From: a virus | Virus record (IMG/VR): IMGVR_UViG_3300029319_000076 | Span: 1-51,979 of that record | Direction: 5' to 3' (one strand) | Length of the DNA: 51,979 bases | Program-made: the position numbers and the translations under genes | Shown: one piece after another, positions 1 through 5,886 of the stretch | How the letters are laid out: the number at the start of each line of letters is the position of its first letter | Position numbering within the stretch: the stretch's first letter is position 1 | Notes under the pieces: model-generated | What the model was told of the DNA's origin: nothing | The model's input: only the letters and a program-made list of their open reading frames with translations | Database searches by the model: none

Positions 1-1598
1 TGTTCGGCTGTCATATCTTTAGCTTTTTGATTTAATGTATTTATTCTCATTAAATCGCCAATTTCCATTCCATATAGGTCAGCTAATTTTTGTCTAGCGA
101 TAGGACTCATTTTTGATATATCACCTTGCATTTCTAATTGCTTGGTCATTTCTTTCATTGCACCTTCTTCATCACCAATTGCTTTTAAATATCTAGCCTT
201 TTCCATGTTTATAGTTTTTCCAGATATTGCTTGATATTCCATTTGAGATGTTAATGATTCTTCTATGTTTAATAATCCATCAGTTGCTTTAACCATTTTT
301 TCAATATCAAGACCAATTGAAGCTGCATATGCTGCTGTCTTAACCATTTGTTTTGCATTACCAGCCATTGACTTAGCTAACAATCCACCATTCTTGGCAA
401 GATCTTTCATTACCTTTCCAGGAGCTACTCCCATTGCTTGTGACATTTCATTTGCAACAATTTGCATGTTAGCAGCTGTTTCTTCTGATGCACCTCCTAT
501 TTCCATTAAGGTCATTTGAACTTCTCCAGCAACCTTTGATCCATATCCAAATGCTTTACCTATATCAGCAACTTTGGCAGCTGTTTCGCCTGATAATATA
601 TCTGCTCTACCAAACTGATCTATAAACTGTGCTTGAACATCACGAATTTCTTTTGCAGTTGCAAGTAGCGTGCTTTGTGATGCTTGTAGTTCGTACGATT
701 GCATTACTAGCTCTTTACTTTGAGCAACTGATAATCCTGTAGTGTCTGCAAACTTTAAAGCTTCTTGAGTAACTTTTTGTAATGCTTTAAATACGGCATA
801 TACTGCGGCTGCGGCCGCTGCTAATGCTGCAACCTTTGCTAAAACTCCTAATACTAATAATCCTTGTGGTCCAATTGCTCTTGTAGCTACTTTTAAAGCT
901 GCATTTAATGCTTGGGTTTTATTGGCACCTTTGGCCATTTGTCCAACAAATTCGCCCATACCAGCATTTAATCCTTTTTTTATTATTCCATTAGCTTGAT
1001 CTAATCCAATCATTTTAGATAGCATCTTACCACCTGGAATTTTTTCCATAAAGCCTTCTGCAAATCCTGTTAATTTATCAGTTCCTGCATGTAATGTATT
1101 TAATGCTTCTTCTGATGCAGCTCCCCATTTTGAAGTATAATCTTCAAATTGACTAATGGTATTTAATTGCTCCATCATTACTTGTTTTGTTTCCATGGTT
1201 ATATCACCATGCATAGCAGAAGCTTGAACTTGTTTTCGCATTGCTTGAATATTTTGTTTCAATGCTTTACCACGATCTCTAGTATAATCTGTTAAGTTAT
1301 TTTGTATTGATGCTTGTTCAGAAACTAATTTATTGATACCTTCTGAAATGTCTTCATAACTAGCAGCATTACCTGCTATTGTTTGATATTCTGATGCAAC
1401 TTGTTTTAATAATTTTAATTCTTCAACTAGAACTGCATTATTTTTTATACCACCTTTTAAAATTTGGTCCATGACTTTGGCAGCCTGTTCTCCTTCTATT
1501 CCGAAATTTTTCATCATACCGGATGCAGTGTTCAGCAAATCATTTATTTGTTTTTGCTTTTTTGGATCGCCTGCGTTATTTTCGTTACCGTTAGCCAT
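1..1598 (-). CDS. Tail tape measure protein, partial (3' end beyond window)
   Basis: The frame opens at an ATG at 1598 (MANGNENNAG) and stays open to the window edge, giving 532 visible residues. It is alanine- and lysine-rich and largely helical. It has a long hydrophobic segment around residues 243-270 (LGVLAKVAALAAAAAAVYAV), as is usual for tape measure proteins, which set tail length and pass through the host envelope. Blocks such as 'GQFGRADILSGETAAKV'-like text and repeated predicted helices resemble the TP901-type tape measure core rather than T4 gp29; this is pattern recognition, not a search. Position supports the call: in transcription order it follows sheath, tube and the chaperone pair, the classical place for a tape measure gene. 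The C-terminus lies outside the window, so total length is unknown. Confidence 0.82.
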   Translation of the reverse strand, partial: MANGNENNAGDPKKQKQINDLLNTASGMMKNFGIEGEQAAKVMDQILKGGIKNNAVLVEELKLLKQVASEYQTIAGNAASYEDISEGINKLVSEQASIQNNLTDYTRDRGKALKQNIQAMRKQVQASAMHGDITMETKQVMMEQLNTISQFEDYTSKWGAASEEALNTLHAGTDKLTGFAEGFMEKIPGGKMLSKMIGLDQANGIIKKGLNAGMGEFVGQMAKGANKTQALNAALKVATRAIGPQGLLVLGVLAKVAALAAAAAAVYAVFKALQKVTQEALKFADTTGLSVAQSKELVMQSYELQASQSTLLATAKEIRDVQAQFIDQFGRADILSGETAAKVADIGKAFGYGSKVAGEVQMTLMEIGGASEETAANMQIVANEMSQAMGVAPGKVMKDLAKNGGLLAKSMAGNAKQMVKTAAYAASIGLDIEKMVKATDGLLNIEESLTSQMEYQAISGKTINMEKARYLKAIGDEEGAMKEMTKQLEMQGDISKMSPIARQKLADLYGMEIGDLMRINTLNQKAKDMTAE

Positions 1599-1609
1599 AG
1601 TATATTATA

Positions 1610-1963
1610 TTATCTTCGAGTTCTATATTTTCCTTTATGTCTGTATCTAACCTTTGCACCTTTTTTACGATCTGGTTTGAATTCGAATCCAAATCTTTTT
1701 GCAAACTTTCCATAACATAAAGATGAGTCAGGATTTTTTAAACAATAACTAGCCATTAAATCTAATGTACGTTCTCGTTGTTTTTGAAAATCTGATAATG
1801 CAGCTTTTACCTCAGGATCATCATTGGCTATTTTTATTGCCTTTCCTAAGTCTCGTGTAAGTGGTTTTTGAGCTAACATGCCAAAAAGTTTACTTAAAAA
1901 TCCTTCAGTTAAATTTACTTGTTTTAGAATTTTTTCTTCTATTCTATTGAAATTATTTGCCAT
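1610..1963 (-). CDS. Small basic protein between tail chaperones and tape measure
   Basis: This 117-residue protein is not recognised. It starts MANNFNRIEEKIL with a helical N-terminal half and ends in a strongly basic tail (FKPDRKKGAKV then RYRHKGKYRTRR). Two cysteines sit near residues 74 and 83. A copy of the ATATTTAT motif lies about 25 bases upstream of its ATG, followed by a purine stretch (GATAGGGAT) that can serve as ribosome binding site. It sits between the chaperone frame and the tape measure gene, with only 11 bases before the latter, so a role in tail assembly or in handling the tape measure protein is a reasonable inference from position alone. The basic tail could bind nucleic acid or acidic protein surfaces. 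Confidence 0.7.
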   Translation of the reverse strand: MANNFNRIEEKILKQVNLTEGFLSKLFGMLAQKPLTRDLGKAIKIANDDPEVKAALSDFQKQRERTLDLMASYCLKNPDSSLCYGKFAKRFGFEFKPDRKKGAKVRYRHKGKYRTRR

Positions 1964-2011: not shown

Positions 2012-2266
2012 TTATCGTCGTTTTCTTATGTTAGGTCTTGATATTCCTTTACCTTTGGATTGTTCTTTATTGGCTTTCTTTTGAGCTTCTGCTTTTTGTT
2101 TTAAAGCTTTTTCAATGCTTTTATAATAGAATGTTCTTAACCAGATTGGCATTTCATATACGTCAGTCCAAGTGAACCCACCTTTCCCATAATATATCAG
2201 TTCAAATATCTGATTATGCAGTACGGGCCTGTAATTAGGCCCTAGGCCAAAAAAAGTTGGTGTCAA
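2012..2266 (-). CDS. Downstream frame of tail-assembly chaperone (gp51-like), probably reached by frameshift
   Basis: This open frame overlaps the end of the gp26-like gene. It has no ATG near its beginning; the only candidate initiator is a TTG at 2266, and the first in-frame ATG is inside the conserved part (EMPIWLRTFYY). The segment TWTDVYEMPIWLRTFYYKSI looks like the conserved core of the small T4-type baseplate hub assembly proteins (gp51 group), and the tail is lysine-rich. Relative to the gp26-like frame it lies at +1, equivalent to -2. A seven-T run followed by a hairpin sits exactly in the overlap, so I infer that the product is mainly a C-terminal extension of the upstream protein, as in the G/GT chaperones of other tailed phages. 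Independent initiation at TTG is the alternative. Confidence 0.75.
   Translation of the reverse strand: MTPTFFGLGPNYRPVLHNQIFELIYYGKGGFTWTDVYEMPIWLRTFYYKSIEKALKQKAEAQKKANKEQSKGKGISRPNIRKRR
2225..2255 (-). promoter_or_regulatory. Programmed frameshift signal: T7 slippery run plus hairpin
   Basis: On the coding strand the text is AAC TTT TTT TGG in the upstream frame, a run of seven T at 2249-2255. After a 6-base spacer (GGCCTA) comes GGGCCT-AATTAC-AGGCCC at 2225-2242, a 6-bp GC-rich hairpin in otherwise A+T-rich DNA. The stop codon of the upstream gene overlaps the hairpin at the stem-loop junction. A shift of +1, or of -2, on the T run enters the downstream open frame; a -1 shift meets TAG within two codons. 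Confidence 0.72.
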
Positions 2267-3119
2267 TGGGCAGATCTACCTCAAATGGTTCACCGGTCAT
2301 ATTATCAACCAAATCAATCTTAAGATCGATATCAGGCATTACTTTTGTTATATGACCTCTTAATGCTCTAGAATCAATAGCAAGCATTTCTTTCTGTACA
2401 AAGTTTCTAATAGGACCTGAACCTCTTTCACCGTCTATAGATGTTATAGTATGTATTAATCTTGTAGTTAATTCACTATCTCCATATCCTGATCTTTTAG
2501 AAAACTTTTTAACTGCTTTTAATTCTTCGTCTATACCTTTACTATCTGAATGCGATAACATTTTAAACGTTACAAGTCTTTTCGATGCTGGTAATGTAAA
2601 TTCAAATTCATTAACGTTTGGTTCAATTGTATCCCAATCTATTTCTTTATCATCAAATGCAGTTAAATCAATTTTTTCTGTTTGTTTTTCACCTGATGGT
2701 GCTGTTATAGAAAATTCATAATCTTTACCATAACCTAATACTCTTGCTGCAATCATTATAGCATTTTTATCACCAGTTAAAATATCATTGTAATTTATTT
2801 TTTCACCTTTACCATTTCCTACTATCAAAGCTCTAAACAATTTATCTAATACTACACCTTGTTTAATATATGATTGAGTAGTTAATATATCTTCTTCTCT
2901 TGCAGACATATATTTCATTTCTACTTGGCCTTGTGATAATGGATTATCTTTTGGATATAATAATCCTTTTGATGGTAAGTCTACAATTTCTGTTGGAAAT
3001 TTAGGTGCTTCTGATTTACCTGATTCAGCTGGTGCTTTATAATTAGCTATAGCTCTTTGTTTTAATTCAGCATCAGAAACTGATTTTTTTTCTGGATATT
3101 CGTCGTTTACTTTTGGCAT
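2235..3119 (-). CDS. gp26: T4 gp26-type baseplate hub / tail-assembly chaperone
   Basis: This 294-residue protein has the DLPSKGLLYP block (residues 47-56), followed by VEMKYMSAREEDIL and later GDKNAIMIAARVLGYGKDYE. These blocks are typical of the T4 baseplate protein family that includes gp26. In T4 gp26 takes part in baseplate hub assembly; in marine T4-type phages the family sits between tube and tape measure, where other phages carry tail-assembly chaperones. The first 40 residues are charged and probably disordered. The ATG at 3119 is preceded by GAGG and by an ATATTTAT motif, which itself follows the terminator of the tube gene. The last codons (TTT TTT TGG) form the slippery run of the frameshift signal, so two products of about 294 and 368 residues are expected. 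Confidence 0.78.
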   Translation of the reverse strand: MPKVNDEYPEKKSVSDAELKQRAIANYKAPAESGKSEAPKFPTEIVDLPSKGLLYPKDNPLSQGQVEMKYMSAREEDILTTQSYIKQGVVLDKLFRALIVGNGKGEKINYNDILTGDKNAIMIAARVLGYGKDYEFSITAPSGEKQTEKIDLTAFDDKEIDWDTIEPNVNEFEFTLPASKRLVTFKMLSHSDSKGIDEELKAVKKFSKRSGYGDSELTTRLIHTITSIDGERGSGPIRNFVQKEMLAIDSRALRGHITKVMPDIDLKIDLVDNMTGEPFEVDLPIDTNFFWPRA

Positions 3120-3219: not shown

Positions 3220-3708
3220 CTAGAATTGAAGGATTGCATAATCATATTTTAGAGTCAATTCGATGTTAACAGGATCTTCAGTAGCCCAATCCATATCACC
3301 AAATGTTGCAGCAGATATATATGCTCCTTTTAAAGTCCATTCTTCAACCTTATCACCTACTGGTCCTAAAGTATTAAATACAATGTCCTTTTTATAGAAA
3401 TCTGAATATCCATCTCTACCTGTTACAGATTCGTGATGCAATCTTACCCATTCCATAACTGCCTGGGCACCTGATGGCACAACTGGGTCATATAATGTTA
3501 TTGTTACATCTTGCCATCTAGATTTACCTTTCAACTTTCTTTCAACGTTAATATGATCTAAAATCAATTCACCTTGATCAATTGAAGGTCTTGAAGCAGC
3601 TTTTATTAAGTATGATGGAATACCTTCTACATACATTATAAACCTATTAGCTACTTTTGGTTCAAATGCGGTAAACATCACTTCGGTTGGGTCTAGCAAT
3701 TCAGCCAT
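3220..3708 (-). CDS. gp19: Tail tube protein, gp19-like
   Basis: This 162-residue protein is about the length of T4 gp19 (163). It polymerises into the inner tube through which DNA passes. The composition fits the fold: VANRFIMYVEGIPSYLIKA at the N-terminus, 'IDQGELILDHINVERKLKGK', then WQDVTITLYDPV and the C-terminal strand NIELTLKYDYAILQF. It lies directly after the sheath gene, as gp18-gp19 do in T4. A strong SD (TAGGAG) precedes the ATG, an ATATTTAT motif lies just upstream, and an intrinsic terminator follows. The gene therefore looks like its own strong transcription unit, as expected for an abundant virion protein. Confidence 0.92.
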   Translation of the reverse strand: MAELLDPTEVMFTAFEPKVANRFIMYVEGIPSYLIKAASRPSIDQGELILDHINVERKLKGKSRWQDVTITLYDPVVPSGAQAVMEWVRLHHESVTGRDGYSDFYKKDIVFNTLGPVGDKVEEWTLKGAYISAATFGDMDWATEDPVNIELTLKYDYAILQF

Positions 3709-3765: not shown

Positions 3766-5886
3766 CTATTCTGGAAATGCTGCACCAGTTGGTAGAATAT
3801 TAAAGTCAATGATAATAAATTCAGCCGTCTTAGTTGGTTGCAAGAATAACTGACCTACCATTTGATTTCTATCTATCACATCTGGTGTATTATTTGTTTC
3901 ATCCATTACTACTTTAAAAGCATATAAACCTTGTCTTTGTTGTACACTTTCTAAATATGGATTCACTATATTTAAGAATCTTAATCTAGTTGCTGCAGTA
4001 TTTTGTTCAAATACTAAGAACTTAGTAGCAGAAGCAATAAACTTCTTAGCTGCGATTAATAATCTTCTAACATTTACTCTATCTAATGCAGATGCTTTCT
4101 TTTGAAGAGTTTTTTGTCCCCAAACACATACACCCGTATTAGGGAAAGTTGCGATTGGATTAACATTACTTTCATATAAAGTATCTCTATTAGTATGAGT
4201 TAATTTTCTCTCTGCCATTGTAGCACTATCAATTCCACCTCTATTCAATCCTGCAGGAGCAAACCATTCAGCTGCCACTCTATCATTGAATGCATATACA
4301 CCTGGTATAACTACTGATGGTGGAACCCATACATTCTTAGCTAATTGATTATCTGGAATCATTACCCATGGCCAATACATTGCAGCATAATTTGAATCTC
4401 TTCCTTCTGCTTTTGCAGTTGCTGTTGCAATTGTTGAACCGTATGATGCTGGATCTACGATTGCAAAACAATCTCCTCTATCTTCACACATGTCAATTGC
4501 TTGAGTAATTATAGCACCATGATTTGCATGATTATCTGTTAATCCAGGTAACAATATTAAATTAATATCATATTCATCTTGATTCTTAAGAATCTTGATT
4601 GCATCTTCATATGCAGTTTTACCATCATTAGCTGAACCTAAATTATATCCTTGCATATTCGTGTTAGTAATGTTTTCATAAAATGCAATTGGATGCTGTA
4701 CATTACCATCAGAACCACCTTGGAATGAACCAGATGATACAGTTGGTAAAGAACCTGATAAACCTGCATCTCTAACATTTCCGTTTTCATCTAAATAATT
4801 ATAAGTTGTTACATGAGTTGTTACTCTAACATATTTAGATTTGTTCGGGAATGAACCTGACAATTGAAGGAATGGATCATTTGTTCCTGAATCTCTAACT
4901 GTCATTGTTTGATCACCAATTACTTTTCCAATAAAATTAGAAGTATTTGGATCAAGTGTTAAATTATTATATTGTTCAATGATTGATTTTCTTTTATCTG
5001 TATCATCACCTCTTCTAATTAATAGGTTGAATGAACCTTTTGCAGTATTAACAGATGTTACTTCAAATTTAAAATTGTCTTTTGAACCTGATGCATATAA
5101 TCCATTAGTTCCAATTGGTCCATTACTATTTAAAATTGCACCATCATTTAACGATGTTAAAGTAAAGCAATTTGTTGAAGTAGTTGTATTAGTACCTCCA
5201 GCTAATGTTAATACATCACTAAAAGTTGTTCCTGAACCAGAATCAACTGAAATACTATTTCCTGCTGTTCCTGCACTTGATGCAGATAAAGCTAAGAATG
5301 TTGTTCCATCTACTGCTGTTACACCAATTGCCGCTGTATTAATTTCTGCTACTAAATTGTCTAATGTAGTAGCTACGTCAGATCCGGTTGCGAAGAAACG
5401 AATGTTTCCATTATCAACTGGGACTCCACCTGCCGGATCAGCTGCTATAAATCTAGTCTCTGTTCCTCCTACTGTAATTTGAAATTCATCTTCTGGTGTT
5501 TGACCATGACTGTTTAATATGGTCAACTTTCCTGAAGCTATTCCAGATCCCACTGTAGTTGATGATGATATAGTTGCTTTTGCTGGTGCATATGCTCCTG
5601 CTAATATTCTTACAACTGTTAATGTTTCTGCATGCTTTAAATATTCTTTTGCTGTATAAGATGTTAAATAAGCATAAGATGATTCTTGTGCTCCAGATCC
5701 ACTACTAAACGTATCTCCAAATATTTGCTGATATTCAGAATAAGATGATACAACAGTTGGAACACCTGCAGGTCCTTTCACTGTCGGTCCTACCAACGCT
5801 GCTCCGATTGCTGCAATACCAGCTGGTAAAAAGGATTGATCTACTTCTTTAGTAAATACACCTGGGCTAACTATTTTTTCTGCCAT
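3766..5886 (-). CDS. gp18: Tail sheath protein, gp18-like
   Basis: This 706-residue protein forms the contractile outer sheath. The N-terminus IVSPGVFTKEVDQSFLP is the classical sheath start, followed by AIGAALVGPTVKGPAGVPT. The C-terminal third has the conserved sheath core (LNRGGID, 'NPIATFPNTGVCVWGQKTL', 'RVNVRRLLIAAKKFI', then FLFVFEQN-like and TAEFIIIDFNILPTG). T4 gp18 is 659 residues, so this is slightly longer. The extra material is probably in the middle, where the composition turns Ser/Thr/Gly-rich (residues about 105-260), consistent with a surface-exposed domain. It is preceded by AAGGAG and an ATATTTAT motif, and followed by the tube gene. Confidence 0.94.
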   Translation of the reverse strand: MAEKIVSPGVFTKEVDQSFLPAGIAAIGAALVGPTVKGPAGVPTVVSSYSEYQQIFGDTFSSGSGAQESSYAYLTSYTAKEYLKHAETLTVVRILAGAYAPAKATISSSTTVGSGIASGKLTILNSHGQTPEDEFQITVGGTETRFIAADPAGGVPVDNGNIRFFATGSDVATTLDNLVAEINTAAIGVTAVDGTTFLALSASSAGTAGNSISVDSGSGTTFSDVLTLAGGTNTTTSTNCFTLTSLNDGAILNSNGPIGTNGLYASGSKDNFKFEVTSVNTAKGSFNLLIRRGDDTDKRKSIIEQYNNLTLDPNTSNFIGKVIGDQTMTVRDSGTNDPFLQLSGSFPNKSKYVRVTTHVTTYNYLDENGNVRDAGLSGSLPTVSSGSFQGGSDGNVQHPIAFYENITNTNMQGYNLGSANDGKTAYEDAIKILKNQDEYDINLILLPGLTDNHANHGAIITQAIDMCEDRGDCFAIVDPASYGSTIATATAKAEGRDSNYAAMYWPWVMIPDNQLAKNVWVPPSVVIPGVYAFNDRVAAEWFAPAGLNRGGIDSATMAERKLTHTNRDTLYESNVNPIATFPNTGVCVWGQKTLQKKASALDRVNVRRLLIAAKKFIASATKFLVFEQNTAATRLRFLNIVNPYLESVQQRQGLYAFKVVMDETNNTPDVIDRNQMVGQLFLQPTKTAEFIIIDFNILPTGAAFPE

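Follow-up and report, generated by a model that had tools for sequence, protein, structure and literature searches.

A predicted +1 frameshift at a sense codon in the gp26/gp51-type tail assembly chaperone locus of a clade of T4-type phages

Organization of the tail chaperone locus

The sequence analyzed is the IMG/VR virus record IMGVR_UViG_3300029319_000076, and the window referred to below is this whole stretch of 51,979 bases, within which no tRNA genes were found. On the minus strand, the tail genes follow the order sheath, tube, gp26-like gene, gp51-like frame, a 117-aa ORF and a tape-measure-like ORF:

3766..5886, minus strand, tail sheath protein (PF04984, E 1.4e-17)
3220..3708, minus strand, tail tube protein, gp19-like, directly 5' of the gp26-like gene (PHROG 4542, E 1.1e-23)
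2235..3119, minus strand, zero-frame gp26-like gene, predicted short isoform (TAC-N / 'G'), 294 aa (ORF, PHROG/Pfam and structural model)
2249..2255, minus strand, putative shift site in a T7 run (sequence; YTT_Y in relatives)
2235..2252, minus strand, zero-frame/+1 overlap of 18 nt, from the shift codon to the zero-frame stop, predicted to be read in both frames
2225..2242, minus strand, hairpin GGGCCT/AGGCCC, 6 nt past the T run
2012..2248, minus strand, +1 frame encoding a gp51-like C-terminal domain ('T'), 78 aa, stop at 2014-2012
1610..1963, minus strand, 117-aa ORF that separates the chaperone locus from the tape-measure-like gene, without a weighty family match
3..1598, minus strand, tape-measure-like gene of at least 532 aa that runs off the window (PHROG 184 baseplate hub, E 0.00099 only)

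The chaperone pair is thus located between the tube gene and, past one small ORF, the tape-measure-like ORF. The sheath-tube-chaperone-tape measure order proposed in a first-pass annotation of this DNA agrees with the gene order listed here, and the annotated tape measure gene of the cultured Flavobacterium phage immuto has the same position as the tape-measure-like ORF of the window.

The gp26-like frame ends with ATT GAC ACC AAC TTT TTT TGG CCT AGG GCC TAA (stop at 2237-2235), where the T7 run (2255-2249) is followed by a 6-nt spacer (2248-2243) and by the hairpin (2242-2225). With TTT at 2252-2250 as the P-site codon, a +1 slip would lead to the overlapping TTT at 2251-2249, the zero-frame A-site codon being TGG and the +1 codon GGC. 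Past this second TTT, the +1 frame reads GGC CTA GGG CCT AAT TAC AGG CCC (GLGPNYRP...) and continues for 78 codons. It is open from 2275 down to its stop, no ATG is found 5' of the gp51-like core, and the sole candidate among ATG, GTG and TTG starts is the TTG at 2266. The -1 frame meets a TAG 8 nt after the start of the P-site codon. The predicted fusion would contain 290 + 78 = 368 residues, compared to 294 for the short form. Checking the sequence and its ORFs on the minus strand showed that the first-pass annotation had its coordinates, frames and lengths right, including a downstream frame at +1 whose core is preceded by no ATG, a -1 shift that is stopped at once, and a fusion of about 368 residues beside the 294-residue form.

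Relationship of the two domains to T4 gp26 and gp51

The gp26-like protein of the window matched PHROG 150 (baseplate hub, E 2.8e-7), and alone it stayed below threshold against the Pfam family T4_baseplate (PF12322, E 0.0017), which was recognized in 21 of 36 family members (best 1.5e-28). Its AlphaFold model (pLDDT 88) gave Foldseek matches to SP-15 and other T4-like baseplate hub proteins, with E down to 3.4e-20. The +1 domain was modeled as three helices (pLDDT 83), and PF20546 (DUF6760) was detected in 10 of the 36 family members (best 1.2e-5). A PDB sequence search found nothing, the Foldseek search with the small three-helix domain gave no significant match, and DUF6760 was not found in two single genomes.

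Comparing the window profiles directly with T4 gp26 and gp51 was rejected as too weak alone (only 15.6% for the +1 domain against T4 gp51); the link is supplied by cyanophage intermediates. Profile comparison connected the window gp26-like protein to cyanophage gp26 (90.8%) and the latter to T4 gp26 (98.7%), and the window +1 domain to cyanophage gp51 (88.7%) and the latter to residues 207-248 of T4 gp51 (96.4%), the E-values of this chain being those of single comparisons. T4 gp26 and gp51 themselves share 192 columns (99.3% in hhalign; BLASTP E 2e-6), and T4 gp51 can therefore be described as a gp26 paralogue with an extra domain. Through these intermediates, the profiles point to homology of the short form with gp26 and of the extra domain with the gp51 C-terminus.

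Conservation of the frame offset and of the shift codon

To find relatives, viral contigs were scanned with the gp26-like protein, giving 80, and a second time with the +1 frame, giving 6. Searching phage isolates by tblastn identified Flavobacterium phage immuto, Microcystis phage Mel-JY01, Bacillus phage SP-15, Streptococcus phage GXN1 and two uncultured large-genome phages. A +1 offset of the gp51-like frame was found in all 81 loci of the first scan, which comprise the window and its 80 relatives, and in 92 of the 93 loci scored overall, a number that includes two repeats (L091 and L092 repeat L003 and L004). The shift motif is matched at +1 in 91 of the 93; L086 is at +1 but has a variant site, and L087 fails. 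The locus scan required YTT_Y after TTY, a motif that only L086 and L087 failed, and of the six scan patterns one (PIDTNFFW) overlapped the shift site; the offset seen throughout the first scan is independent of the motif requirement. The exception, L087 (~4769, uncultured phage LR756511), seemingly carries its gp51-like domain in the -1 frame; an ATG overlaps the zero-frame stop there (TAATGGATGAG), and translation may restart at TAATG.

Clustering at 90% identity left a non-redundant set of 48 loci. In relatives, the +1 frame is open for 63-114 codons; a +1 frame of at least 63 codons was present at 2 of 8,133 random codons of these genes and at the shift site of 48 of the 48 loci. Because the +1 offset recurs in relatives at such a contrast to random codons, the overlap and frame offset observed in the window are confirmed as real and not due to chance. 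Eight relatives binned in bacterial genome assemblies and having a readable junction (L095-L102) are all at +1. The cultured Flavobacterium, Microcystis, Bacillus and Streptococcus phages share the +1 arrangement, with CTT_T as the site of the Flavobacterium phage.

All 48 non-redundant loci carry a YTT_Y shift codon (TTT_T in 36, TTT_C in 9 and CTT_T in 3). TTT is used at all 45 Phe sites, compared to 77% TTT among the Phe codons of these genes (~1e-7). The last zero-frame residues are nearly always FFWP, FLWP or FFFP, and the A-site codon is TGG (35 loci), CCC (7), TTC (4), CAC (1) or CGT (1) and never a stop; the -1 frame closes within 8 nt in 34 of the 48. The first-pass annotation had suggested looking in related phages for a conserved T run, hairpin and frame offset. 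The offset was, but the T7 run was not, the conserved element being YTT_Y, and the hairpin was found in two subclades only. The length of the T run was also rejected as the signal, as loci with three-T runs keep the offset.

A hairpin in some lineages

The window subclade has a hairpin of 6-7 bp starting 6 nt past the T run, with a fold z of -2.0 in the window. Over 8 distinct sequences, 94.6% of the cells are paired and two pairs are changed on both sides versus 0 in every slid control; 43 of 500 shuffles reach the score, giving modest support. Class C carries a hairpin of its own, about equally far from the site, in which one pair is compensated. In L066, L070, L073, L076, L078 and L081, a GC-rich hairpin unlike that of the window was observed just past the shift site, with one compensated pair and a spacing much as in the window. 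The GC-rich 6-bp hairpin that had been noted in the overlap was thus recovered in the subclade of the window and in one other, but is missing in many relatives, including the cultured phage immuto. A role as universal stimulator was rejected on the ground that strong folds are mostly confined to two subclades, and we take the hairpin as a lineage-specific stimulator and not as the core of the mechanism. Rfam gave only sub-threshold chance matches near the shift site, in an intergenic stretch.

How the second frame is reached

What the sequence itself shows are the two frames and how they are conserved, the shift codon, the lack of a start and the homology. These comparative data strongly support what the first-pass annotation had proposed, a frameshift fusion of the gp26-like and gp51-like domains as a chaperone pair. 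The pattern is very probably explained by +1 ribosomal frameshifting that yields a 294-aa short and a ~368-aa long tail assembly chaperone.

The direction had been left as +1 or -2, and only the +1 part stood. A -2 ribosomal shift on the T run would reach the same frame with one extra Phe; it is known for the phage Mu chaperone (PMC5009743), and AAC TTT TTT TGG in the window does permit UUU re-pairing at -2. However, five relatives have other sites: TTT CTT TGG in L026, L080 and L082, TTC TTC TTT CCC in L074 and TTC TTT CGT in L085. All five keep the offset, and +1 is preferred because these sites re-pair well at +1 (on UUU or UUC) and badly at -2. A -2 shift is therefore very unlikely. The +1 re-pairings found (UUU to UUU, UUU to UUC and CUU to UUU) are all acceptable for the tRNA, and the last is the prfB slip. 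When prfB-type +1 sites were tested, only CUU was more slippery in the P site than UUU and CCC (PMC10885494). A slip at the following Pro codon (CCT_G/CCC_N) was rejected as SP-15 has no Pro codon there.

One could also propose that the downstream frame is a separate gene, started from the TTG at 2266 or from a non-standard codon, or by re-initiation past the zero-frame stop. Besides the TTG of the window, an ATG is present at codon 10 in class C relatives, and the records of cultured phages annotate short separate ORFs. However, in 12 of the 48 loci the stretch from the last +1-frame stop before the site to codon 25 of the domain contains no ATG, GTG or TTG, often because that stop sits 3 codons before the site. 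Past the zero-frame stop, the differences in the window subclade are distributed 76/23/135 over positions 1/2/3 of the +1 codons. The nine codons ahead of the only ATG of class C also evolve as coding sequence (22/18/76), and the frame would therefore be translated ahead of where that start could act. A separate gene also gives no reason for the fixed YTT_Y codon and frame offset, and T4-type and contractile-injection relatives carry both domains in one polypeptide. This makes a separate gene very unlikely. The second frame overlaps the first, is shifted and conserved and has no start of its own, as in G/GT-type chaperones. The first-pass annotation had named a downstream ATG with an SD in relatives, or the lack of a conserved slippery run, as observations that would speak against a frameshift; no ATG-plus-SD start is common to the clade, many relatives being startless, and the slip site is conserved.

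Transcriptional slippage, in which RNA polymerase would drop one U in the T run so that part of the mRNA carries the fused frame, is worth considering as the T7 of the window and the T9 of a subgroup (e.g., L018) are long enough to raise suspicion. It is nevertheless just as improbable as a separate gene, since the same five relatives have only three consecutive Ts at an unchanged offset. Judged on the sequences, the interrupted T runs mean that neither a -2 shift nor slippage of RNA polymerase can be the mechanism common to these loci. A T9 run is present at the shift site in L018, L039, L043, L045 and L046, and transcriptional slippage could add to the ribosomal shift in these loci. Finally, an assembly or homopolymer error that split one gene, for which a T7 run in a metagenome-derived record might speak, can practically be dismissed, as the same offset is found in 48 non-redundant loci, interrupted T runs included, and isolate genomes from four host groups refute it.

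With +1 ribosomal frameshifting as the favored explanation, a single mRNA of a T4-type contractile-tailed phage would give two tail assembly chaperone isoforms. Most ribosomes would read the gp26-like frame to the TAA and release the 294-aa short form. A minority would slip forward by one base with tRNA-Phe on UUU in the P site and UGG waiting in the A site; the tRNA would re-pair perfectly on the overlapping UUU, and reading would continue in +1 with GGC CUA GGG, producing a long form of 368 residues that carries a three-helix gp51/T-like domain at its C-terminus. If the isoforms act as in lambda G/GT, the tape measure protein would be coated by the short form, and the additional domain of the long form would bring in tube subunits. 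We infer the occurrence and efficiency of the shift, a factor that makes the ribosome pause and this division of labor between isoforms. No element that is conserved across the clade was seen to explain the pause, the A site holding a sense codon and the hairpin being missing in many relatives.

Other coding routes within the same family

T4 gp26 (TAC-N) and gp51 (TAC-NC) belong to a homologous family and follow the same two-isoform logic, with gp51 carrying the extra C-terminal domain. T4, however, has two divergent genes, whereas the window has a single gene with a predicted +1 shift. The single overlapping locus marks a variant of coding and not of protein family, and cyanophages do not use two genes either. 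Cyanophage (Kyanoviridae-type) gp26/gp51 loci have the same gene pair and C-terminal FF junction, with a second frame open across the overlap, but the two differ in the shift, which would be -1 at a U_UUU_UUN heptamer in cyanophages and +1 at YUU_Y in the clade of the window, and they form separate tree groups. In 153 of 155 cyanophage-type loci, the gp26 gene terminates with T TTT TTC, TTG or TTA and the gp51 domain occupies the -1 frame. The canonical -1 heptamer was observed in the cyanophage gp26 genes of L105 (2974-3865) and L112-L270, and the second frame of S-CAM8 is unannotated. In Synechococcus phage S-SCSM1 (L104, 4680-4880), T TTT TTC is kept and the gp51 domain is at +1, apparently through an 11-nt insertion; this frame change may be a sequence error, decay or a real change. 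Vibrio phage Bakedbeans has the -1 arrangement of cyanophages, and its gp26 used as query found no relatives in viral contigs.

Two Bacteroidota genomes with contractile-injection-like clusters (L272 859-1626 and L273 859-1626) encode the gp26-like protein and DUF6760 as one 255-aa in-frame ORF, joined at ...MQSFFM, the same FF junction as in the frameshift loci. In another Bacteroidota contractile-injection-like locus (L271, reverse strand, 1115-1668), the gp26-like and DUF6760 ORFs overlap in different frames, which could be a further case of recoding. A tree built from 46 sequences requires three changes, the minimum, to account for the +1, -1, two-gene and in-frame groups; the +1 loci form one group (support 98/93), and the -1 group has support 77/22, making its single origin less certain. 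Overall, we think it rather likely that a programmed +1 frameshift operates across the clade at a sense A-site codon, in most cases UGG, and needs neither a stop codon nor a universal RNA structure. The chaperone family would then have four routes (+1, -1, two genes and in-frame fusion) to the same long isoform.

Comparison with known systems

A 2016 recoding review described the G/GT frameshift as widely conserved except in T4, with chaperone frameshifts that are mostly -1, as in lambda, but -2 in Mu and, very likely, +1 in haloarchaeal HSTV-2 (PMC5009743). Vladimirov, Gautam and Davidson (2022, Virology 566:9-15) are reported to have identified gp26/gp51 as the T4-like chaperone genes. According to papers that cite this work, some T4-like phages have one short gene and one long gene that is fused (PMC10885494), and the TAC-N genes of T4-like phages are known to contain poly-T -1 signals (PMC12846349). 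The chaperone identity of gp26/gp51 is therefore to be taken as already known, as is their reading as a split G/GT of T4, and the cyanophage -1 site probably so. The first-pass annotation had held that T4 is not known to use such a shift; T4 has two divergent genes, whose products had already been identified as chaperones in 2022. No report of the +1 clade was found in the literature searched, which is weak evidence with subscription papers thinly covered; the apparent novelty lies in the +1 direction, placed at a sense codon and shared by a clade.

To the T4-like chaperones of 2022, the locus adds a large clade of phages of the T4 type, some of them cultured, that appear to shift forward. In the phage records examined, the second frame is either annotated as a short separate ORF or missed. 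Within this one family, the +1, -1, two-gene and in-frame solutions can be compared as they occur in nature, and the +1 sites that have a sense codon in the A site can be used to ask why a ribosome slips forward.

As in the window, the lambda G/GT locus lies between the tube and tape measure genes and its long form arises by recoding near the end of the short gene, but the lambda shift is -1 and that of the window clade would be +1. The prfB +1 site (CUU_UGA) is closer in kind, its P-site tRNA slipping forward to UUU, and the sites of the window clade likewise have YUU followed by U or C. The prfB site also has an SD-like stimulator. It places a stop codon in the A site, whereas the window clade has a sense codon there, mostly UGG.
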